A DNA stretch of 20,714 nucleotides, from IMG/VR virus record IMGVR_UViG_3300033571_003803, positions 1 to 20,714 of that record, one strand, 5' to 3'. The notes beneath the pieces were generated by a model. That model was not told the origin of the DNA, made no database searches, and was given only the letters and a program-made list of their open reading frames with translations. The position numbers and the translations under genes were made by a program. Each line of letters starts with the position of its first letter. The first letter of the stretch is position 1. The DNA comes from a virus. Shown piece after piece: positions 6,683-19,588 of the stretch.

Positions 6683-7831
6683 ATGCTTTCAAAAAAAACT
6701 ATTTGCGCTTACCCTTGGCGATCAGCTGCCATACGACCCAACGGTGCCACCATACCCTGTTGTAGGTACCCTAACCTTTCCGATCCTGACACATTTGTAC
6801 ACAGTGCTGATCCACGTAACAGCGAACACTGGGTTAAACTAAGATCAGATATGTTGGCGGGACAGCCTGTAGAAGGATGTAACAGTTGTTATCGAGATGA
6901 AAATAGCGGGTTAACAAGTCTGCGCCAGCGTAGTCTTTCAAAGTTTGTTCCCATTAAAAATGAAATAGAGCCCTTGGAGCAATTAGAAGTTGCCTTGAGC
7001 AATTTATGTAATCTAGCCTGTGTTCATTGTAACAGTTACTTTTCCAGTAAATGGTACAGTGAAGATGTAATAGCAGGGAGAGCCGCCAAATCTGGCGTAA
7101 CTGAAAATGCCTTCAACTTTGATCATTGGGATTTATCTAACTTAACTGAGTTAAAAATCATTGGCGGTGAGCCGTTTATGGAACAAAAACGATTTATTGA
7201 CTTGTTAAAAAATCTAAATTTACCAAGCATTAAATTACACATCACTACCAACGGCACTGTATTACCTAATGAAGAACTAAAGACGTTAATCGAATCCTGT
7301 AAGACTGTTCATTTGTGCGTCAGCTTGGATGGATTGTACTCCACTAACGACTGGTATAGATGGCCAAGTAAATTCTCCCAAGTAGTTGATAATATGAAAT
7401 TATATGAATCTTGGTGGAGCAATTACAAAAACATTGTACCCATTGTTCACCATGTTGTCAATGCTGTAAACATTTTTGAACTTGAAGATTTTGTTAAATT
7501 TATGGCTAGAGATTTTCCCGTATGGAAAATGGAATGGGATTGGATTCGATGGCCTCATTGGCAGCAATTGTCAGTGTTGCCAACTTCTGTTAAAATGAAT
7601 TTAATTTCTAAATTTACAACATTAAACTCAGAATATGTAACTAATAACTTTATACCAAATCCTTATAAAGTATCAATTAACAGATTATTGGAACGCCCAA
7701 CTGATAATTGGTCAACACTAAAAGATCAAATAACAAAAATATCAGCAGAACGAAATTTGAATTTTTTAAAAATGGTGTCATCTTACGAACTAATATGGAA
7801 TCTAGACGTTGACAAGCCCACGCTTGTATAG
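6683..7831 (+). CDS. Radical SAM protein with N-terminal cysteine-rich region (twitch type), 382 aa
   Basis: The catalytic [4Fe-4S] motif CxxxCxxC is at C109, C113 and C116 (NLCNLACVHCNS), followed by GGEP at 161-164, a SAM-binding element. The N-terminus has C8, CC at 26-27 and CNSC at 66-69, like the auxiliary-cluster (SPASM/twitch) half of peptide-modifying radical SAM enzymes, here placed before the core. The substrate is unknown and no precursor peptide is obvious. The gene looks more AT-rich than its neighbours, has no clear ribosome site and sits between complete units, suggesting acquired cargo. The family is known from phages and marine bacteria; its function there is unresolved. Confidence 0.85.
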   Translation: MLSKKTICAYPWRSAAIRPNGATIPCCRYPNLSDPDTFVHSADPRNSEHWVKLRSDMLAGQPVEGCNSCYRDENSGLTSLRQRSLSKFVPIKNEIEPLEQLEVALSNLCNLACVHCNSYFSSKWYSEDVIAGRAAKSGVTENAFNFDHWDLSNLTELKIIGGEPFMEQKRFIDLLKNLNLPSIKLHITTNGTVLPNEELKTLIESCKTVHLCVSLDGLYSTNDWYRWPSKFSQVVDNMKLYESWWSNYKNIVPIVHHVVNAVNIFELEDFVKFMARDFPVWKMEWDWIRWPHWQQLSVLPTSVKMNLISKFTTLNSEYVTNNFIPNPYKVSINRLLERPTDNWSTLKDQITKISAERNLNFLKMVSSYELIWNLDVDKPTLV

Positions 7832-7837
7832 TATAAT
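7809..7837 (+). promoter_or_regulatory. Perfect sigma70 promoter for the 7894 gene
   Basis: TTGACA (7809-7814), 17 bp, TATAAT (7832-7837). The -35 lies inside the last codons of the radical SAM gene. The roughly 50-nt leader contains ATTTCA (7839-7844) and TGAAAT (7858-7863), a possible small hairpin, and an AAGGA ribosome site. Confidence 0.9.
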
Positions 7838-8446: not shown

Positions 8447-9214
8447 ATGCGTTATTTAATATTATTTTTAGCCCTCATCACCGGGTCTGTTCACGCAGAA
8501 CCCAGTGTTTTCGTTTTTAATCAAAGCAAACACACTGCCTTGGTTAATCAAAATACTGACCGAGTTAGGCCCATTGCCAGCATTACCAAGTTAATGACTG
8601 CTTTGGTAGCTGTGGAGTCTGGATTGAGTTTGGAAAGTAGAACACAGCTGATCAATCGATGGACTACTGTGTTGCCCAAACGTACCTACACTAGACTGGA
8701 ATTGCTAACAGCCATGTTAGTACGCAGTGATAACAGTGCCGCTGAAAGTCTAGCACATGATTATCCTGGAGGCAGAACAGCCTTCATTGCGGCCATGAAC
8801 ACTAGAGCCAGTCAATTGGGCATGACACATACTCGTTTTGAAGATGCTAGTGGGCTCAGTAATAATAATGTAAGTACTGCAAGGGATTTGGTTAACCTTC
8901 TTGAGCAGGTACACAGAGTTGACATTATTAAAGATATCAGCACTAGAACTCATAGCAGTGTCATAACGGAAAACAAAAAGCGAACCACAGAGATAGCCTT
9001 TAACAATACCAACAGGATTGTACTTACTGAATTCAAAAATATTCAAATCAGTAAGACTGGTTTGACTACTCCTGCAGGTTGGTGTGTCAGTATGGTGGTA
9101 GAAGAACTGGGCCAAACACACTACATTGTGGTTTTAGGCTATCAAACTAAACAGGCCAGGCTTGACAAAGTCAAATACATAATGTATAATCATATCATGG
9201 GTAAACTCTATTAA
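8447..9214 (+). CDS. D-alanyl-D-alanine carboxypeptidase/endopeptidase, S11 family, 255 aa
   Basis: Signal peptide MRYLILFLALITGSVHA with a likely cut after Ala17. All three penicillin-binding signatures are present in order: SxxK at 45-48 (SITK), SxN at 94-96 (SDN) and KTG at 203-205. About 255 aa matches the compact PBP7/PbpG-type enzymes without the C-terminal membrane anchor. It should act in the periplasm, trimming pentapeptides or cutting D,D-crosslinks, thereby loosening the wall at lysis or altering the wall of the infected cell. Preceded by a TAAATA box 4 nt from the ATG and by no clear ribosome site. The family call is confident; carboxy- versus endopeptidase is open. Confidence 0.92.
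   Translation: MRYLILFLALITGSVHAEPSVFVFNQSKHTALVNQNTDRVRPIASITKLMTALVAVESGLSLESRTQLINRWTTVLPKRTYTRLELLTAMLVRSDNSAAESLAHDYPGGRTAFIAAMNTRASQLGMTHTRFEDASGLSNNNVSTARDLVNLLEQVHRVDIIKDISTRTHSSVITENKKRTTEIAFNNTNRIVLTEFKNIQISKTGLTTPAGWCVSMVVEELGQTHYIVVLGYQTKQARLDKVKYIMYNHIMGKLY
9162..9190 (+). promoter_or_regulatory. Perfect sigma70 promoter for the 9223 gene and downstream array
   Basis: TTGACA (9162-9167), 17 bp, TATAAT (9185-9190), lying inside the 3' end of the S11 peptidase gene. The next promoter I see on this strand is at 12736, so this one may drive the whole small-gene array. Confidence 0.9.
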
Positions 9215-9222
9215 CATGAAGT

Positions 9223-9687
9223 ATGAAAAAAATCTATTACGAAAAAGTTGGACGCAGATATAAACCTGTTGCGGAATATGACAGCACCTACATGGATAGC
9301 TTTCCCAAAGGCAATCACCTTGTCATGTGCTATCCAGGCGGTACCAGTCGAAGATTTAACATTGAGCCAAACTATGCTGCCATGATTGCGGCTGGCCGTG
9401 TTGCTGAAGATGTAATCAGTAAGGCTGTGGTCAAGGCCAGTGAGATGCGCCCGCACAAAAAGCCTATCACTGAGAAACAACGCAAGGCTTGGGAAAACTT
9501 GGCCAAGGCCTTTGGTGACGAACGTTACTACGTTGAGATTCCCAGTGCTAGAGAAATTGCCGAGGAAGGTGTCAAGGCCATGATGGCGGAAGCTGAACAG
9601 CTACTAGAGAATCCAAGTGTGCGTAGAGCATTTGAACGTTTTCAATTAGTTTGTCAACTCACGCAGGATCACACGGTTGGCAGTTGA
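9223..9687 (+). CDS. Conserved phage hypothetical protein, 154 aa
   Basis: MKKIYYEKVGRRYKPVAEYD and FPKGNHLVMCYPGGTSRRFN, then a helical C-terminal half ending ENPSVRRAFERFQLVCQLT. I recall close look-alikes in aquatic T4-like phage genomes, unnamed. The tail (NPxVxxAFxxFQ) is shared with the products at 11333 and 12112 (PxxxxAxxxF...L), pointing to a common interaction helix. It overlaps the next gene by 11 nt. Confidence 0.85.
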   Translation: MKKIYYEKVGRRYKPVAEYDSTYMDSFPKGNHLVMCYPGGTSRRFNIEPNYAAMIAAGRVAEDVISKAVVKASEMRPHKKPITEKQRKAWENLAKAFGDERYYVEIPSAREIAEEGVKAMMAEAEQLLENPSVRRAFERFQLVCQLTQDHTVGS

Positions 9688-9898
9688 CATTGTTATTCTA
9701 AATAGAAAAGCAGACGATGTTATGAACATAGTGCGTTCATTAAGGGATCAAGGTTTGACACAGGGTGTTGACTTTGACTTTGCTTATAGGCAAGCAACCT
9801 TTGATCCTATCACTGGACATTCAGTTACGGATAGACATACTGTGTTTACCTTTTACACAGAAAAGTACGCCACATTATTTGCTTTAAAATGGTCATGA
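9677..9898 (+). CDS. First member of the LKW-tail family, 73 aa
   Basis: Start TTG 9677 is inferred: the product (DIVILNRKADDVMNIVRSLR...) needs its first strand, and no ATG lies before 9722. Strand-helix-strand order and the ending FTFYTEKYATLFALKWS look like a small ferredoxin-like fold. The terminal F-x-F-x5-A-x-x-F-x-LKWS motif is the family signature. The AAATGGTCATGA end supplies the ATG of the next gene. Function unknown. Confidence 0.75.
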   Translation: MAVDIVILNRKADDVMNIVRSLRDQGLTQGVDFDFAYRQATFDPITGHSVTDRHTVFTFYTEKYATLFALKWS

Positions 9899-10191
9899 CA
9901 ACACTAGAAAATCAAATGCTAGAACGGGCGTCATCAGAGATAGCCCGAGCAATAGATAAAGAATTATTAGATGACCTTATGATTGATGTATTAACTAAGG
10001 AAGGCTGGACAGTGACTACCATGAACCCGGCGTTTGAACCACCACTGACTCGGTTGAGTAATGGAGAGTGGTACAGTGAAACAGCAGAATGGATTCACAT
10101 CAATGCCAAGAGCGATTACAAATTGTTAAACGGCCAATGGGTGTTTAAAGATCCTAAAGATGCCATGTGGTTTACATTAAGGTGGAGTTAA
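9895..10191 (+). CDS. LKW-tail family protein, 98 aa
   Basis: Reads MTTLENQMLERASSEIARAI with a helical first half, a variable middle and the conserved ending WVFKDPKDAMWFTLRWS. An upstream in-frame ATG at 9889 would add two residues. It overlaps the previous stop (ATGA) and the next start (TAATG). Confidence 0.8.
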   Translation: MTTLENQMLERASSEIARAIDKELLDDLMIDVLTKEGWTVTTMNPAFEPPLTRLSNGEWYSETAEWIHINAKSDYKLLNGQWVFKDPKDAMWFTLRWS

Positions 10192-10511
10192 TGGAATACT
10201 TTTACAGCGGCGGAGGCAACAACCTTCCGGACTTTACCTATCGATTCTTAGTCAAGAAGATTACTGATGACATGTATGACTGGTGCGGTAACTATCCGTT
10301 AGACGGACCTTTTGAACGCTGGCACATTATACACAACTACTATGAAAGCTCCGCCTTGAGAGTCGATAGAGGAGACAGCCCTGAAACTCCGCTTATTCAG
10401 TTTGAAAGTCGCAAGGCAGCTTACATGTTTCGCATTGCCTTTAGTGAATACATTATAGAAAACAAAACATACAGCTTTGCCAAACAGCATCTTGAAGAAG
10501 GATTTAAATGA
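10191..10511 (+). CDS. Divergent member of the small-protein array, 106 aa
   Basis: MEYFYSGGGNNLPDFTYRFL, a central WHIIHNYYESSALRV region and then FESRKAAYMFRIAFSEYIIE. The last stretch aligns with the family tail but has IAF instead of LKW and continues about 26 residues. Its start shares one base with the upstream TAA. The next gene overlaps its stop by 4 nt and uses GAAGGA (inside this gene) as ribosome site. Confidence 0.75.
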   Translation: MEYFYSGGGNNLPDFTYRFLVKKITDDMYDWCGNYPLDGPFERWHIIHNYYESSALRVDRGDSPETPLIQFESRKAAYMFRIAFSEYIIENKTYSFAKQHLEEGFK

Positions 10512-10762
10512 AAACACGATTGAGAAAACTTGTAAGACAACACAACTGGCAAGTAGTCGAAGTGTCACGGACTAACTTGTATAACCTCTTTGAAAGCAAT
10601 GGCGGCGAATGGGGCGAAATGGCACAGTACAAAGAAGTGCGAGCTTGGTGTGCTAAAACATTTCCCAAAGGATCTTGGGAAGCCAGTTTAGGCAAGTACG
10701 GCAAGAAGTTTGTGTTCAAAGAAGACAAACATGCAATGCTATTCAAACTCAAATGGTCATGA
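10508..10762 (+). CDS. LKW-tail family protein, 84 aa
   Basis: Basic N-terminus MKTRLRKLVRQHNWQVVEVS, then VRAWCAKTFPKGSWEASLGK and the ending KFVFKEDKHAMLFKLKWS. The central element (xxWCxxxFxxGxW) recurs in the products at 10759, 11100 and 11725. So the shared module is about 50 residues: helix with WC, a glycine-tryptophan turn, strand, and a DA/RD-x-x-F-x-LKW helix. Confidence 0.85.
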   Translation: MKTRLRKLVRQHNWQVVEVSRTNLYNLFESNGGEWGEMAQYKEVRAWCAKTFPKGSWEASLGKYGKKFVFKEDKHAMLFKLKWS

Positions 10763-11109
10763 CCAATCACGAGCAAGAAGCATTTGAAGCTATGGTAAAT
10801 CAATACACAAACAAAGGCCGTAACGCCTACCAACGGCTTATAGACGACATACAACAACGTCCTGTTGAAGCATTAATCTGCTCCGAAGGCACAGTCTATG
10901 GCAGTAGATACTATACAGTACAGCCCGAAGGCGGCAACTGGTTAGACATGGAAGTATGGTGCTTGGATACGTTTGGTGAAACTGGTAGTATATGGAGTGA
11001 GACTAAGAATCTAACACCCGAGCCACTAAAGCGATGGTACATGAACAATCGTAAGTTTTGGTTTAAAGAACAAAAAGATCGTGATTGGTTTATACTAAAA
11101 TGGAACTAG
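10759..11109 (+). CDS. LKW-tail family protein, longest copy, 116 aa
   Basis: MTNHEQEAFEAMVNQYTNKG begins an extra N-terminal helical region of about 50 residues. Then come the shared module MEVWCLDTFGETGSIW and the tail KFWFKEQKDRDWFILKWN. ATG 10753, in frame, is an alternative start; reading further upstream would lie inside the previous gene. The last codons AAATGGAACTAG contain the next gene's ATG. Confidence 0.85.
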   Translation: MTNHEQEAFEAMVNQYTNKGRNAYQRLIDDIQQRPVEALICSEGTVYGSRYYTVQPEGGNWLDMEVWCLDTFGETGSIWSETKNLTPEPLKRWYMNNRKFWFKEQKDRDWFILKWN

Positions 11110-11333
11110 TGAACAACAATCGAATAACGTTTAATAATACACGATATCATCTTAACGGCATTATGGAACAGTGGTGTCGTGACACTATAGGTGAAGGCAA
11201 ATGGATAGGCGAGCCCTGCCCTAAAGACTGGACAGGCTTGCCCGACTGGACAATACACAGTATGTTTGGCAATACCACATTTGCTTTTAAACACGCAAGA
11301 CATTATACTTGGTTTATACTAAGGTGGAACTAA
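11100..11333 (+). CDS. LKW-tail family protein, 77 aa
   Basis: Starts at the ATG embedded in the K-W codons of the upstream gene (10-nt overlap). MELVNNNRITFNNTRYHLNG, shared module MEQWCRDTIGEGKWIG, tail TFAFKHARHYTWFILRWN. No separate ribosome site is seen, so translation is presumably coupled. Short N-terminal part compared with 10759. Confidence 0.8.
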   Translation: MELVNNNRITFNNTRYHLNGIMEQWCRDTIGEGKWIGEPCPKDWTGLPDWTIHSMFGNTTFAFKHARHYTWFILRWN

Positions 11334-11728
11334 TGGCCTACAACTACAAAGATTATCTACAACATCCGTATTTTTTGAAAGACGAGCATAACAGTGAAGA
11401 ATACTTTCAGAACAAGTTTGAATGCCGTATCGAAGACAGTAAAGAATATCGTCATTATGTAAGACAAATGCCTTACTATAAATGGGACGGCCGAGAACCA
11501 TACAACATAGAAACTCAAGTAGTGCCTATGAAGTCCATACACTTAACCAGTGATAATCTAAAAAGATTAATAGCAGAGCAAGAACACATGAAGTACCTTC
11601 AAAAAGATGCTGAAGAAGGCAAACGAGTATGGCAGCGAGAACGTGAAGACAGCGTCGTTCGTAGTCGAAATCCCGCAGTGGAAAAAGCATACCGCAACTA
11701 TCAGATGTTATTGGAGTTAGCACGATGA
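11333..11728 (+). CDS. Hypothetical protein within the array, 131 aa
   Basis: MAYNYKDYLQHPYFLKDEHN, tyrosine-rich first half, then a long charged helix (AEQEHMKYLQKDAEEGKRVW) and the end NPAVEKAYRNYQMLLELAR. That end matches the tail of the 9223 product and, loosely, the 12112 product. It lacks the LKW tail, so it is an interspersed non-member. TAATG start junction and ATGA end junction. Confidence 0.8.
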   Translation: MAYNYKDYLQHPYFLKDEHNSEEYFQNKFECRIEDSKEYRHYVRQMPYYKWDGREPYNIETQVVPMKSIHLTSDNLKRLIAEQEHMKYLQKDAEEGKRVWQREREDSVVRSRNPAVEKAYRNYQMLLELAR

Positions 11729-11943
11729 AAATGAAAACATGTGAAGTGGGAATGTTTAGACTTCCTGGTATAGTTATTGAAGCAGATGAAGATGAGACTA
11801 TTTCCGAAGAGCGATTAAAAGAAATGGAAGATTGGTGTAACAGCGAGTTTGGTAAAGGTATGCGTATGACTGAGAGACTGTTTAGTTTTCGTAAAGCTAG
11901 TCAACGAGATTGGTTTATTCTACGGTGGAGTGGCGAGGAATGA
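11725..11943 (+). CDS. LKW-tail family protein, 72 aa
   Basis: MKMKTCEVGMFRLPGIVIEA, acidic centre, shared module MEDWCNSEFGKGMRM and tail LFSFRKASQRDWFILRWS followed by GEE. ATGA overlaps at both ends. The GEE extension provides a GAGGA ribosome site for the next gene. Confidence 0.85.
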   Translation: MKMKTCEVGMFRLPGIVIEADEDETISEERLKEMEDWCNSEFGKGMRMTERLFSFRKASQRDWFILRWSGEE

Positions 11944-12110
11944 AAGTTGTAGATTTGACAAATATTCGTACCTACGAAACTCGCAAAGCAATTGATTGGT
12001 TGTCTAAAACATTTGGACCTCCAGGCAGTCGTTGGAAACTCAAAGCATTGGCACAGGTAGAGTTTACCAAAGACAGAGACGCAACATTATTTTTATTACA
12101 TTGGGGATGA
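11940..12110 (+). CDS. LKW-tail family protein, shortest copy, 56 aa
   Basis: MKVVDLTNIRTYETRKAIDW then SKTFGPPGSRWKLKALAQ and the end VEFTKDRDATLFLLHWG. The WC of the module is WL here and the tail is LHWG. This minimal copy delimits the conserved unit. GAGGA precedes the ATG. Confidence 0.8.
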   Translation: MKVVDLTNIRTYETRKAIDWLSKTFGPPGSRWKLKALAQVEFTKDRDATLFLLHWG

Positions 12111-12111
12111 T

Positions 12112-12477
12112 ATGATTAAAGGAATAACACCTAGTCGGTATATTACAGTAAGTGGCGGCAGTCCAAGTAATCCCTACATCAGCCCAGGTGCAGTAGGTTC
12201 AGGCATGATGCGATACAATGGCAACATGAACTGTATCGAAATCAATGATGGTAACATGTGGAAACAACTAGAGTCGAGTTATGCCACGGTTGAACTAAAT
12301 GTAGAAGCTCAGGCTATCTTAGATTGGGCAAAAAGGAAAATGGCAGAGGAACAACAACTAGATGAGTTATGTAAAAAATACCCAGGACTCGGCAAAGCTA
12401 GAGGCAATTTCGAAACCTTCAAGAGATTGGTTGAGTCTACAGAAAACTTACCCGAATCAGTTCAATCTAGTCCATGA
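12112..12477 (+). CDS. Conserved phage protein with a virion-protein-like repeat motif, 121 aa
   Basis: MIKGITPSRYITVSGGSPSN leads into GMMRYNGNMNCIEINDGNMW (about 35-54). This xxRYNxxxxxIExxDGxxW motif is common in phage tail and fibre-associated proteins. It is followed by a helical region (EAQAILDWAKRKMAEEQQLD) and a tail with PGLGKARGNFETFKRLVE, like those at 9223 and 11333. I recall related unnamed phage proteins. GGGGA lies upstream of the ATG. Confidence 0.8.
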   Translation: MIKGITPSRYITVSGGSPSNPYISPGAVGSGMMRYNGNMNCIEINDGNMWKQLESSYATVELNVEAQAILDWAKRKMAEEQQLDELCKKYPGLGKARGNFETFKRLVESTENLPESVQSSP

Positions 12478-12484
12478 TAAAGTT

Positions 12485-12739
12485 GTGGAAGTTAAGACTG
12501 TAGTCGTACACCGTTTTAAGATGGGCGATGTCGACGACCCAGATCTCTATGCCGCACAACCTTTATACGAGTGGGAACAAAGCGAAATGGGGCAATGGGT
12601 CATGAGTCATGCCGTAGATCAACCCGAGTGGCGCCGCAATATGAACATCAGTCTTTACGGTTATGAGTACGTCATTGTTGCCAAACTGACTGCTAGAGAT
12701 TATACATTTTGGCAGCTAAAATGGGGCAACGGACATTGA
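12485..12739 (+). CDS. Array member with divergent LKW tail, 84 aa
   Basis: The start is uncertain. GTG 12485 gives V(M)EVKTVVVHRFKMGDVDD; ATG 12522 is the alternative. The reading frame is open further left but would overlap most of the upstream gene. YEWEQSEMGQWVMSHAVDQ and YGYEYVIVAKLTARDYTFWQ precede LKWGNGH, so it keeps the ending with a short extension. I recall this EW-x-QSE-x-G pattern from other phages. No ribosome site. Confidence 0.7.
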   Translation: MEVKTVVVHRFKMGDVDDPDLYAAQPLYEWEQSEMGQWVMSHAVDQPEWRRNMNISLYGYEYVIVAKLTARDYTFWQLKWGNGH

Positions 12740-12764
12740 CATAGTATAGAATTGACAGTAAAAT
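12736..12764 (+). promoter_or_regulatory. Sigma70 promoter for the 12785 gene
   Basis: TTGACA (12736-12741), 17 bp, TAAAAT (12759-12764). It overlaps the TGA of the previous gene. A second TTGACA occurs at 12752-12757 without a suitably spaced -10. Confidence 0.75.
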
Positions 12765-13734: not shown

Positions 13735-13763
13735 TTGACTAAAATTCCTATAGACCGTATAAT
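13735..13763 (+). promoter_or_regulatory. Sigma70 promoter for the ParB-like gene
   Basis: TTGACT (13735-13740), 17 bp, TATAAT (13758-13763), starting 2 bp after the terminator T-run. The leader is about 55 nt, with AGGA at 13812-13815. Confidence 0.85.
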
Positions 13764-16189: not shown

Positions 16190-17101
16190 ATGTTTCCATA
16201 TATCGGCGGCAAAGCGCATCATGTAGGTTGGATGGATCCATTGTTCCCACATCAGTTCGGCACGTTTGTTGAAGTGTTTGGTGGAGCAGGATGGGTCAGT
16301 GTAAAGAGTCCAAAAGTAGCAACAGCTACAACTAGAGTCTATAATGACTTTAATCCCCTGTTGGCTAATGTTTACGAATGTTTAAGAACAGACCCTGCGG
16401 CAGTACTGGCCAAGATGACTGCTACGCCTAAGAGTGATGTCGCATTGTATCGACAATACCAACAGGAACTGTTTGGTCAATTGGATTGGACTAAGGTTAC
16501 ACTAGGTGACATCGACTTGGCTGTAAAGTATTTGTATCTACAAACACAAGTGTTCGCAGGTACACCACTAAGCACAACTAATGTTCCTTACTTTACCGAA
16601 ACTAAAGCTGGAGGCAAGTATCCCAGCAAGTACGATACACTACGTAAGAAGTTAGCCAACGACACTATTACAGATAGACTTAAAGAGATTACAGGTGTTG
16701 AACAAATGGACTGTATTGACCTGATTAAGAAGTATGACAGTCCTGACACATTCTTTTATGTTGATCCTCCTTACTACAATATGGAGTTCTATTACAGTAA
16801 AGACTTTCCTAGAGAGAAGCACGAGGAACTAGCCAACACACTGGCCAATATCAAAGGCAAGTTTGCTCTTAGCTATTACGACTTTGATGACCTAAAAGTA
16901 TTCTATCCAGAAGATAAGTTTACTTGGCATAGACAAAGTGTCTATCGCAGTGCCGCAACTAGAAGCGGCAACAACAAAGATTACAAAACTAAAAGCAAAG
17001 GCACAGAAATTCTTATTATGAATTACACGCCTACACCTGCGATCAAACAACCGAAAGTAAAAAAGGTAGCACTACCTAAAGCATTGTTTACAACAGTATG
17101 A
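16190..17101 (+). CDS. DNA N6-adenine methyltransferase, D12 (Dam-like) class, 303 aa
   Basis: SAM-binding motif FVEVFGGAGW at 26-35 with the N-terminal PYIGGK element before it, YNDFN at 51-55 and the catalytic DPPYY at 192-196. This order is typical of alpha-type D12 methylases such as Dam and DpnM. Length (303) is slightly above Dam; the extra lies in a lysine-rich C-terminus. The recognition site cannot be read from sequence. GATC sites look frequent in this window, so a GATC enzyme would be protecting rather than compensating for avoidance. It pairs with the upstream nuclease; its stop overlaps the next ATG by 4 nt. Confidence 0.9.
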   Translation: MFPYIGGKAHHVGWMDPLFPHQFGTFVEVFGGAGWVSVKSPKVATATTRVYNDFNPLLANVYECLRTDPAAVLAKMTATPKSDVALYRQYQQELFGQLDWTKVTLGDIDLAVKYLYLQTQVFAGTPLSTTNVPYFTETKAGGKYPSKYDTLRKKLANDTITDRLKEITGVEQMDCIDLIKKYDSPDTFFYVDPPYYNMEFYYSKDFPREKHEELANTLANIKGKFALSYYDFDDLKVFYPEDKFTWHRQSVYRSAATRSGNNKDYKTKSKGTEILIMNYTPTPAIKQPKVKKVALPKALFTTV

Positions 17102-17930: not shown

Positions 17931-18182
17931 ATGAAAGTCCGTGATATAATAACAGAAAAAGCCAGCGAAGAACTATGTAAAAGTGCTAGATCTAACGCAG
18001 ATTTAGGTGCTAGCAATCTTGCCAGCTGTAAAAGCCAAGGCTGGAGATCCCGCGAAGGCAACAAAAGCCATTTGATAGGACATGGCAAAAGCAGTGTCCG
18101 CATTACTGTTGGCGGCAAAAAGATTAAAGGGAAAGCCTACGGTGGACCTTTGCCAGATTACGGCACAAGGAAAGGCCAATGA
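17931..18182 (+). CDS. Small basic protein, candidate internal head protein, 83 aa
   Basis: The N-terminus MKVRDIITE/KASEELCKSA fits a T4-type capsid-targeting sequence (T4 internal proteins start MKTYQEFIAE) ending in (I/L)-x-E, where the prohead protease cuts. The remaining protein is rich in K, R, G and S (about 17 basic against 7 acidic residues) with GKSSVRITVGGKKIKGKAYG, suiting a packaged DNA-associated protein injected into the host. It has a late-like box and a 4-nt overlap with the next gene, whose product shows the same kind of leader. Homology to any T4 internal protein beyond the leader is not visible. Confidence 0.55.
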   Translation: MKVRDIITEKASEELCKSARSNADLGASNLASCKSQGWRSREGNKSHLIGHGKSSVRITVGGKKIKGKAYGGPLPDYGTRKGQ

Positions 18183-19588
18183 GATTCAACGAATTCAAGG
18201 TAGTTCTTAAAGAAGACGCTGCTAAGTTTTATACTATAGGTGACAGTCATGCTGTAGCTGTGGCTACAGCAGGTGGCAAAGATTGGACTAACTTAGCCAT
18301 AGGCGGTAGAAGTAGTACTGATAGCGCCATGTTGGCAAATATTGCTAAAGTGCCAAAGGGTGCTACAGTATTGGTTTCGCAAGGCGCAAATGACACCGCT
18401 AATGCTGCTCGTGCTCATATGGACAGCCAAGGTAAAAGACCTTTAAGACCAGCTAAAGATATTGCTGCCAATGTTGCCAATGTAGTTAACAAAGTACAGG
18501 CGCAAGGCGCCACTGTAATTTTTATGCTGTTTCCAAACGGCCCTGGACGCGGTGCAGGCCTAGCCAAATATTACGGCGGCGACTATCAAGAAGAAGTTAG
18601 AGATGCTATCAAAGCTGCTATCGATGTTGAAATTATTGATATTAATGGCAAACCATTAACAGACGGTGTTCATGCCACAATGGGCGTGTATAAAGATGTT
18701 GCTAACCAAGTTAAAGCCAAAGCTGGTATCACACTCGGTCCTGCTGGTGCTACACCTGGCGCCCCAGCAACTAAAGACAAACAGGGTCAAGGTGCTAGTC
18801 CAACTGCTCTAGTATTAGATGTACCAACTAGTCGCCGTAGTCCTGCCGTTAGAGATGTACAACAGGCACTAATGGCACTGGGTTATCCGTTGCCTAAACA
18901 TGGAGCAGACGGTATCCGTGGTCCAGAGACACGAGCAGCCGTTGAAAAGTTTCAACGTGACAACAACTTAACAGTTGATGGCGATCCTGGACCTGAAACA
19001 GTTGGAAAACTAAATGCGATATTAAAGTCTAAACCAGAAGTGGCCAAGAAGATAACAAAGAGTACTACCGCTGATGTGAAACCAAGCAGACTAGCTAGTT
19101 CTGGAACTGGTGATGTTGGCGAGTTGTTAAAGAGTGATGATCCTAAGGTTCAAGAAGCAAGAAAGTCTGCTGAAAAATATCTCGGTAGAAAGATGTCTGA
19201 CGAAGAATGGACAGCTTTAATTAAAGTTACAGGCGCTGAAGAAGGATCAGTCGAAGGACTTGGTTGGGTAATGGCTGCTATTTTAAATCGTGTTAACAAG
19301 GGAACTTGGGGCGACACAGTAATGAGTGTAGTCGAAGCACCATTCCAGTTTGAGCCTGTTACAGGTCCTACAGGAAGAGGCGCTAGTAGATTAAGTAGTC
19401 TGCCTATTGTTCGACTTAACCAGATAGCAAACGCAGCGACGACTGTACTACCAAGTGTTCCAAAGAACATTGTTAATTTTACTTCTAACATTGATGCCGC
19501 ATACAAAGGCAGAAGCTCTATCAGTTATAGAGATAAACTGCTAGCAAGAGGCGGCGAAGTAAAAGGTCAGAGTGTGTTCTCTGCTTAA
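18179..19588 (+). CDS. Three-domain envelope enzyme: SGNH hydrolase, PG-binding, SleB-like cell-wall hydrolase, 469 aa
   Basis: After a leader MRFNEFKVVLKE (possible prohead-protease site L-K-E, residues 10-12) comes an SGNH/GDSL domain: GDSH at 21-24, Gly in AIGG at 40-43, GAND at 69-72 and D162-x-x-H165. Residues about 222-281 form a peptidoglycan-binding repeat (VRDVQQALMALGYPL, DGIRGPETRAAVEKFQ). Residues about 325-469 match the SleB/hydrolase-2 type (GAEEGSVEGLGWVMAAILNR, EAPFQFEP). It thus joins an esterase/lipase-type domain to a wall-cutting domain, and may be packaged and used at entry, or act at lysis. Domain calls good; order of action inferred. Confidence 0.85.
   Translation: MRFNEFKVVLKEDAAKFYTIGDSHAVAVATAGGKDWTNLAIGGRSSTDSAMLANIAKVPKGATVLVSQGANDTANAARAHMDSQGKRPLRPAKDIAANVANVVNKVQAQGATVIFMLFPNGPGRGAGLAKYYGGDYQEEVRDAIKAAIDVEIIDINGKPLTDGVHATMGVYKDVANQVKAKAGITLGPAGATPGAPATKDKQGQGASPTALVLDVPTSRRSPAVRDVQQALMALGYPLPKHGADGIRGPETRAAVEKFQRDNNLTVDGDPGPETVGKLNAILKSKPEVAKKITKSTTADVKPSRLASSGTGDVGELLKSDDPKVQEARKSAEKYLGRKMSDEEWTALIKVTGAEEGSVEGLGWVMAAILNRVNKGTWGDTVMSVVEAPFQFEPVTGPTGRGASRLSSLPIVRLNQIANAATTVLPSVPKNIVNFTSNIDAAYKGRSSISYRDKLLARGGEVKGQSVFSA

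Follow-up and report, generated by a model that had tools for sequence, protein, structure and literature searches.

Why a run of neighbouring small genes should encode proteins that all close on nearly the same few residues is the question raised by the DNA analysed here, a 20,714-base piece of virus record IMGVR_UViG_3300033571_003803 (positions 1 to 20,714), referred to below as the window, whose tested genes were identical to part of one 41-kb viral contig. Positions 9677-12739 of the plus strand contain eight small open reading frames (ORFs) ending in F-x-L-(K/R/H)-W or a near form of it, with three other small genes between them (10191-10511, 11333-11728 and 12112-12477). A six-frame pattern search found the eight tails on the plus strand, where the first-pass annotation of the sequence had placed them, and none on the minus strand. 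The F-x-F-K-(D/E) stretch said to precede most tails occurs literally in only three of the eight copies, the looser F-x-F being present in six, and the WC motif ascribed to several members was found in four (10508, 10759, 11100 and 11725). The analysis suggests that the tail is the end of one small predicted domain, duplicated and diversified in place, to which exchangeable N-terminal modules are joined, some of them related to pieces of the capsid protein gp23.

The tail is not peculiar to the window. A 16-column profile built from 43 unique tails of ten contigs scored above 18 in 68 of the 16,367 ORFs of those contigs and in none with shuffled C-termini, a count that is partly circular because the profile tails came from the same contigs. 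A wider search with a tail profile, as the first-pass annotation had proposed, was then made on 171 viral loci, themselves retrieved by means of family members; 746 of 25,887 ORFs (456 unique tails) exceeded 18, and again no shuffled C-terminus did so. All members of a locus were on a single strand in 171 of 171 loci, 7 of which have one member only. A tryptophan follows L-R/K in 363 of the 456 unique tails, the remainder having mostly Y, C, F or T, and the median length of the family, counted from ATG starts, is 82 amino acids (aa). The initial search with the 116-aa member 4 gave 14 loci in viral contigs, the longest of 383 kb; two more subfamily searches, with members 2 and 1, confirmed 249 and 119 relatives, 80 loci being kept from each. 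Most contigs have one compact array: all seven members of the 383-kb contig lie within 76.8-80.0 kb (3.2 kb). The densest array seen was L287:1-8357, with sixteen tail-family ORFs in 8.4 kb of contig. Redundant loci (L001, L002, L008 and L012-L016) were removed from the first tail set, the A10 alignment used 53 of 65 selected tails, and the second A6 subfamily alignment kept 43 of 52 rows, L126 being removed for a stop codon and L112, L127, L129, L143, L146, L148, L149 and L168 also omitted.

The nature of the tail was approached by single-protein structure prediction of two divergent members, compared by the order of their elements and by their lists of structural matches. Member 1 (9677) was modelled with a mean predicted local distance difference test (pLDDT) score of 93 as strand-helix-strand-strand-helix, the tail forming the last strand and helix; the model of member 2 (9895; pLDDT 79) has the same order after two additional N-terminal helices. 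This beta-alpha-beta-beta-alpha order in both models is that of ferredoxin-like domains, and the structural matches of both were ferredoxin-like, 3rrk, 2k3i, 3i3w and Mesd/Boca entries appearing in both lists. The best Z-scores, 6.5-6.6 for member 1 and 5.0 for member 2, were obtained with RRM, ACT and MoaD-related domains, which share the order of strands and helices; the tail domain has no sequence relation to them and stops after its last helix. Such matches may mean a common arrangement rather than a function, a Z below 8 being compatible with arrangement alone. Profiles of the subfamilies align with one another over the last 21-24 residues only (E 2.3e-6 and 5e-7; a third comparison was weaker, E 0.0024, probability 12%). 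The proposal that one domain has been duplicated and diversified in place is thus upheld by the same predicted fold order and by the alignment of the subfamily profiles at their C-termini.

The rigid C-terminus had been taken to point to a common partner or to a degradation or assembly signal, and its position is in keeping with such a role, the stop codon falling within three residues past the W position in 413 of the 456 unique tails. Neither a partner nor a signal of this kind is required, however, because the tail forms the final strand and helix of a tiny domain predicted with high confidence; its hydrophobic pattern fits the packing of a terminal helix, and its DNA serves the next gene. 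A degron or sorting signal was dropped after the structure model, and we consider it highly unlikely that the tail marks the protein for degradation or assembly or docks a single shared partner. A partner surface was also considered for the hydrophobic residues that the last helix bears on its far side; packing on the first helix would explain them equally.

At the DNA level the tail shows a marked choice of codons. The arginine before the tryptophan is AGG in 137 of 242 tails, compared with 131 of 1707 arginine codons elsewhere in the same ORFs, and the next start lies at -4 to +1 in 127 of 137 AGG tails as against 57 of 105 tails with other arginine codons. The resulting AGG-TGG resembles a Shine-Dalgarno sequence, as at 10180..10185 (+) in the window, a putative Shine-Dalgarno of the gene at 10191, and in the tail of member 5 at 11322..11327 (+), likewise for the gene at 11333. 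A codon ending in A before TGG, for example AAA-TGG, creates an ATG, which is the sole start on offer in 56 of the 363 W tails; in the window the ATG of member 5 lies within the preceding LKW tail, and an alternative ATG of member 2 (9889) within the tail of the gene before it. As read from the sequence, the tail DNA therefore also supplies the putative ribosome-binding site or start of the next gene. It is established that overlapping genes may be coupled, with help from internal Shine-Dalgarno motifs (PMC6728339). The AGG bias and the overlap with the next start could suggest that the tail is conserved solely as a ribosome-binding site, to which we give a very slight chance. The tryptophan persists in Lys tails, which have no AGG, and the F-x-F and A..F positions upstream of it are conserved at the protein level; a constraint on the protein remains, because W is retained in the 43 of 363 W tails that lack a downstream start within -16 to +12. 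The double use of the tail, in the protein core and as a ribosome-binding site, would explain how arrays can grow by fusion with translation kept.

The N-terminal parts do differ, as had been stated, and they were found to be exchangeable modules swapped between cores, a property that the first-pass annotation had missed together with the capsid origin of some of the pieces. Short N-termini were excluded from the module searches, leaving 320 of 456 for the search against contig proteins, 304 for the gp23 and control tests and 211 for the exchange of pairs. One core carries four different, unrelated N-termini (L177, L181, L213 and L243). Conversely, one N-terminal module is found on unrelated cores in 45 pairs, in which the N-termini are alike and the cores have no 40-column match; the N-termini of L009:7962 and L116:5633, for example, match at E 3.7e-12. 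Comparison of the N-termini with the proteins of three large contigs gave 48 alignments, and none with reversed proteins; most of the matches were to gp23.

A gp23 match was obtained for 21 of 304 family N-termini and for 0 of 954 control small genes of the same loci (Fisher 6.5e-14). Four relatives exceed the curated cut-off (24.4 bits) of the Pfam Gp23 profile (PF07068; length 376), each over profile positions of about 2-59 only: L290:1299-1721 (55 bits, E 1.2e-14), L181:5477-5833 (36.2 bits, E 5.9e-9), L287:3950-4357 (35.0 bits, E 1.4e-8) and L288:3890-4375 (34.6 bits, E 1.9e-8). The L286 piece is 61% identical to gp23 across 41 residues, and consecutive genes of L290 correspond to gp23 59-97 (64% identity) and then 148-206 (41%). 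L288 has a third segment, corresponding to about gp23 304-361, with weaker support from the match (E 3e-5, direct comparison). The L181 fragment aligns with T4 gp23 95-135, which we take to coincide with the Gol region. The proteins with a capsid module are not complete capsid proteins; they are small (118-162 aa for those with the N-terminal segment) and their gp23 part is partial. Homology to gp23 is seen in the N-terminal modules of some members, only about 25-76 gp23 residues being aligned and fused to an unrelated C-terminal domain. A derivation of the tail domain itself from capsid was rejected, the tail profile matching gp23 with a probability of 1.4%. The subfamily profile of window member 2 aligns with gp23 179-213 over 35 columns (E 3.2e-6, probability 88%), and Gp23 appears at E 0.1 or below for 7 of its 43 members, the best at 0.0015.

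Other resemblances of N-termini are leads rather than claims: an endolysin motif (E 0.003), presumably GH19-type; ribonucleotide reductase (E 0.0021); virion and tail-fibre proteins (E 1.2e-4 and 0.0064); and, for N-termini with 'RQxGKS', the ATP-binding region of the terminase large subunit (gp17-type), for which the profile match (E 5.8e-4) has a probability of only 29% and the single terminase match (E 8.4e-4) came from a small database. In L101:5690, L114:5591, L133:2 and L134:2051 an endolysin-like 'YKGRGxIQLTGR' runs into a P-loop-like 'GRQxGKS', as if spliced. Ahead of its tail domain, the 158-aa product of L177:3637-4110 has a GRQTGKS that resembles a Walker-A motif, and a stretch of 18 residues of which 14 are identical to ribonucleotide reductase.

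Patchwork N-termini of this last kind, the four unrelated N-termini on one core and the presence/absence differences among close relatives are what would be expected if the array were a recombination hot spot in which tandem domain copies and ready start signals capture pieces of the phage's own genes as N-termini, largely without selection on the piece. The ribosome-binding site in the tail DNA agrees with this as well, since any upstream fusion would therefore be translated. Such a neutral origin is a real possibility, if a doubtful one, and fits nearly as well as the host-directed reading weighed below. It does not readily account for one gp23 module with a conserved pattern being kept across 249 confirmed loci, or for a capture biased to gp23, which receives most of the partial matches though it represents 3 of the 603 database proteins.

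The expression of the arrays was considered through their promoters. Sigma-70 sites with at least 11 of 12 consensus bases were sought in 106 non-redundant array loci (1.02 Mb), and 251 were found on the array strand, compared with 40 on the opposite strand and 25 in a shuffle. Relative to the arrays, 7 sites are internal, 35 lie upstream at a distance of up to 1.5 kb and 23 stand at the end, the -35 box of the latter often overlapping the last stop codon. In the window a TTGACA-17-TATAAT promoter matching the consensus at 12 of 12 positions (9162..9190, +) precedes the array operon, the same site occurring in the relatives L172 and L173, and an 11/12 promoter at 12736..12764 (+), also present in L173 and, at 12/12, in L006, has a -35 box that overlaps the last tail gene's stop codon. 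The array is, on these sequence grounds, one predicted transcription unit between consensus sigma-70 promoters. The idea of a host-takeover array had been put forward in the first-pass annotation; the arrays, being polycistronic and bounded by strong host-type promoters, fit such early genes, which gives that idea some substance and is no proof of it.

Two sets of published observations bear on what capsid pieces might do in such genes. According to PMC3014915, Gol is defined by 29 residues of gp23, is better conserved than any other part of that protein and triggers the Lit protease; EF-Tu is bound more stably by about 100 residues taken from the protein's first quarter. Capsid protein is also described as an activator of CapRel and of a staphylococcal Thoeris system in PMC9712102 and PMC11312562, respectively. 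Because of these precedents, we favour, though at somewhat less than even odds, the reading that the arrays encode early host-directed effectors with exchangeable baits, the capsid-derived members being capsid mimics or decoys. The array of a T4-like jumbo phage would be expressed as one transcription unit by unmodified host RNA polymerase early in infection, giving a multigene family of small modular proteins in which the constant C-terminal domain would be a stable scaffold and the variable N-terminus a target-binding bait. Members with a capsid piece could then be soluble mimics of gp23, occupying the host factors or defence sensors that recognise new capsid protein, and members with other N-termini could bind other host targets. 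It is tempting to speculate further, as a fairly unlikely extension, on a 'shredded capsid' arsenal in which gp23 pieces (the N-arm of the Gol region, about 148-216 and the C-terminal part) fused to the common domain behind host-type promoters saturate the immune proteins that sense capsid, and host factors as well, ahead of the real capsid, other paralogues doing likewise for other sensed phage proteins.

Several points weigh against host-directed mimicry. Capsid protein is made late, so that an early decoy must persist, and the gp23 pieces are short, so that their folding as in the capsid may be doubtful. Most members have no recognisable capsid piece (283 of 304 tested N-termini gave no gp23 match); in the window only member 2 has one, and that by way of its subfamily profile, the protein alone (9895-10191) falling below the Pfam Gp23 cut-off with no family found. 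Matches to any long protein were obtained for 26 of 304 family N-termini and for 37 of 954 control small genes, many of the controls being truncated ORFs. The promoter class, moreover, is a matter of consensus match only. A role directed at the capsid itself may also be envisaged, in which gp23-derived members bind capsid and act as dominant negatives against competing phages or regulate head assembly of the phage that encodes them: a segment of the capsid is a natural partner for capsid protein, and three gp23 segments are in use. The absence of a capsid piece from most members, and strong host-type promoters that are not obviously of a late class, make this unlikely.

Known systems resemble the arrays in part. 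T4-like phages carry clusters of small accessory and host-takeover genes, which are also one-direction runs of small uncharacterised genes behind strong host-type promoters; in the arrays, by contrast, the members belong to a single domain family, whose N-termini have been exchanged and include capsid pieces. Polymorphic toxin arrays likewise combine a constant and a swapped part and are diversified by recombination, but in them the variable part is C-terminal, whereas in the phage arrays it is the N-terminus that changes and the C-terminus that stays the same; no toxin domain was found. The fold and the logic of the overlapping operon are, taken alone, ordinary. In the open papers of PubMed Central, no report was found of the tail family or of array chimeras of a capsid piece and a shared domain. 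Fragments that proved to be decoys or baits would point to the capsid parts that hosts recognise, and bacterial capsid sensing could then be tested from the phage side.

The carriers of the arrays are T4-like phages, several of them larger than 200 kb, because gp23 was found (PF07068 above the cut-off in 3 of 11 contigs in one search and in 6 of 12 in another). A hidden Markov model (HMM) of the tail matched in six of six large environmental contigs and in none of eight out of nine named phages (Atu_ph07, BcepSauron, two megaphages, P-SSM2, HTVC008M, T4 and S-SKS1); the ninth, CBB, gave a single weak match inside a 3367-aa frame. Among cultured phages, tblastn found no match for members 10759, 11725 and L018:2574; with member 9677 it gave S-SKS1 (E 0.8) and with L101 a Xanthomonas phage (E 0.9). 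Bacterial genomes were scanned twice, and none of the 33 and 55 pattern matches was confirmed as a relative; a DNA search of the array region against phage records gave no match, and the window members matched no Pfam or PHROG family above the cut-off. Three BFVD entries from uncultured Caudovirales (A0A6J5LU58, A0A6J5KVQ9 and A0A6J5L8G4), deposited as uncharacterised, without description or function, have TM-scores of 0.82-0.94 to the model of member 1 and are of the same family. The tail family is, by these sequence searches, apparently undescribed in the libraries searched, and it would bring under one description hundreds of small genes so far left without annotation in the genomes of large environmental phages.

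The genes of the window array, all on the plus strand, may be listed in order. The first gene past the promoter (9223..9687, 154 aa) ends in a different common motif, NPxVxxAxxxF, and its homologues adjoin the arrays of G001, G004 and G010. Member 1 (9677..9898, 73 aa, TTG start), the predicted beta-alpha-beta-beta-alpha domain, and member 2 (9895..10191, 98 aa), with the N-terminal helix module related to gp23, have 119 and 249 relatives in viral contigs, respectively. The interspersed gene at 10191..10511 (106 aa) was tried as a ninth member and not counted, its internal look-alike tail being equalled by shuffles in 20 of 200 cases. Member 3 (10508..10762, 84 aa) has a WCAKTF helix and a relative in G004 (44%); the N-terminus of member 4 (10759..11109, 116 aa) aligns with the 'RQxGKS' module of its relatives, the P-loop being absent. 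Member 5 (11100..11333, 77 aa) is followed by the interspersed gene at 11333..11728, which has the second C-terminal motif at its end (RNPAVEKAYRNYQMLLEL). Member 6 (11725..11943, 72 aa, LRWSGEE) is 96% identical in G001, and member 7 (11940..12110, 56 aa, LHWG) has a relative in G004 (51%). The interspersed gene at 12112..12477 joins a weak structural-protein-like N-terminus (GMMRYN..EINDG; phrog_1325, unknown function, E 0.004) to the second C-terminal motif. Member 8 (12362..12739, LKWGNGH) had been assigned a GTG start at 12485, which is probably internal; the start at 12362, giving 125 aa, is preferred on account of the relatives, in which the longer N-terminus is conserved (82% in G001 over the 125 aa).

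The second C-terminal motif, NPxVxxAxxxF/Y...L, closes the non-tail genes 9223-9687, 11333-11728 and 12112-12477, and its pattern matches 34 ORFs among the array loci compared with 5 after shuffling. Just upstream of the array, 6683-7831 encodes a radical SAM protein with a SPASM-like N-terminal stretch, and 8447-9214, adjoining the array promoter, a phage-encoded D-alanyl-D-alanine carboxypeptidase (peptidase S11). Additional near-perfect sigma-70 promoters of the window lie at 7809-7837 (12/12) and 13735-13763 (11/12). The adenine methylase-like protein of 16190-17101 has its nearest phage-record matches in uncultured megaphages of 635-735 kb, and the product of 18179-19588 combines a GDSL lipase-like part, a peptidoglycan-binding domain and a cell-wall hydrolase domain in one protein.

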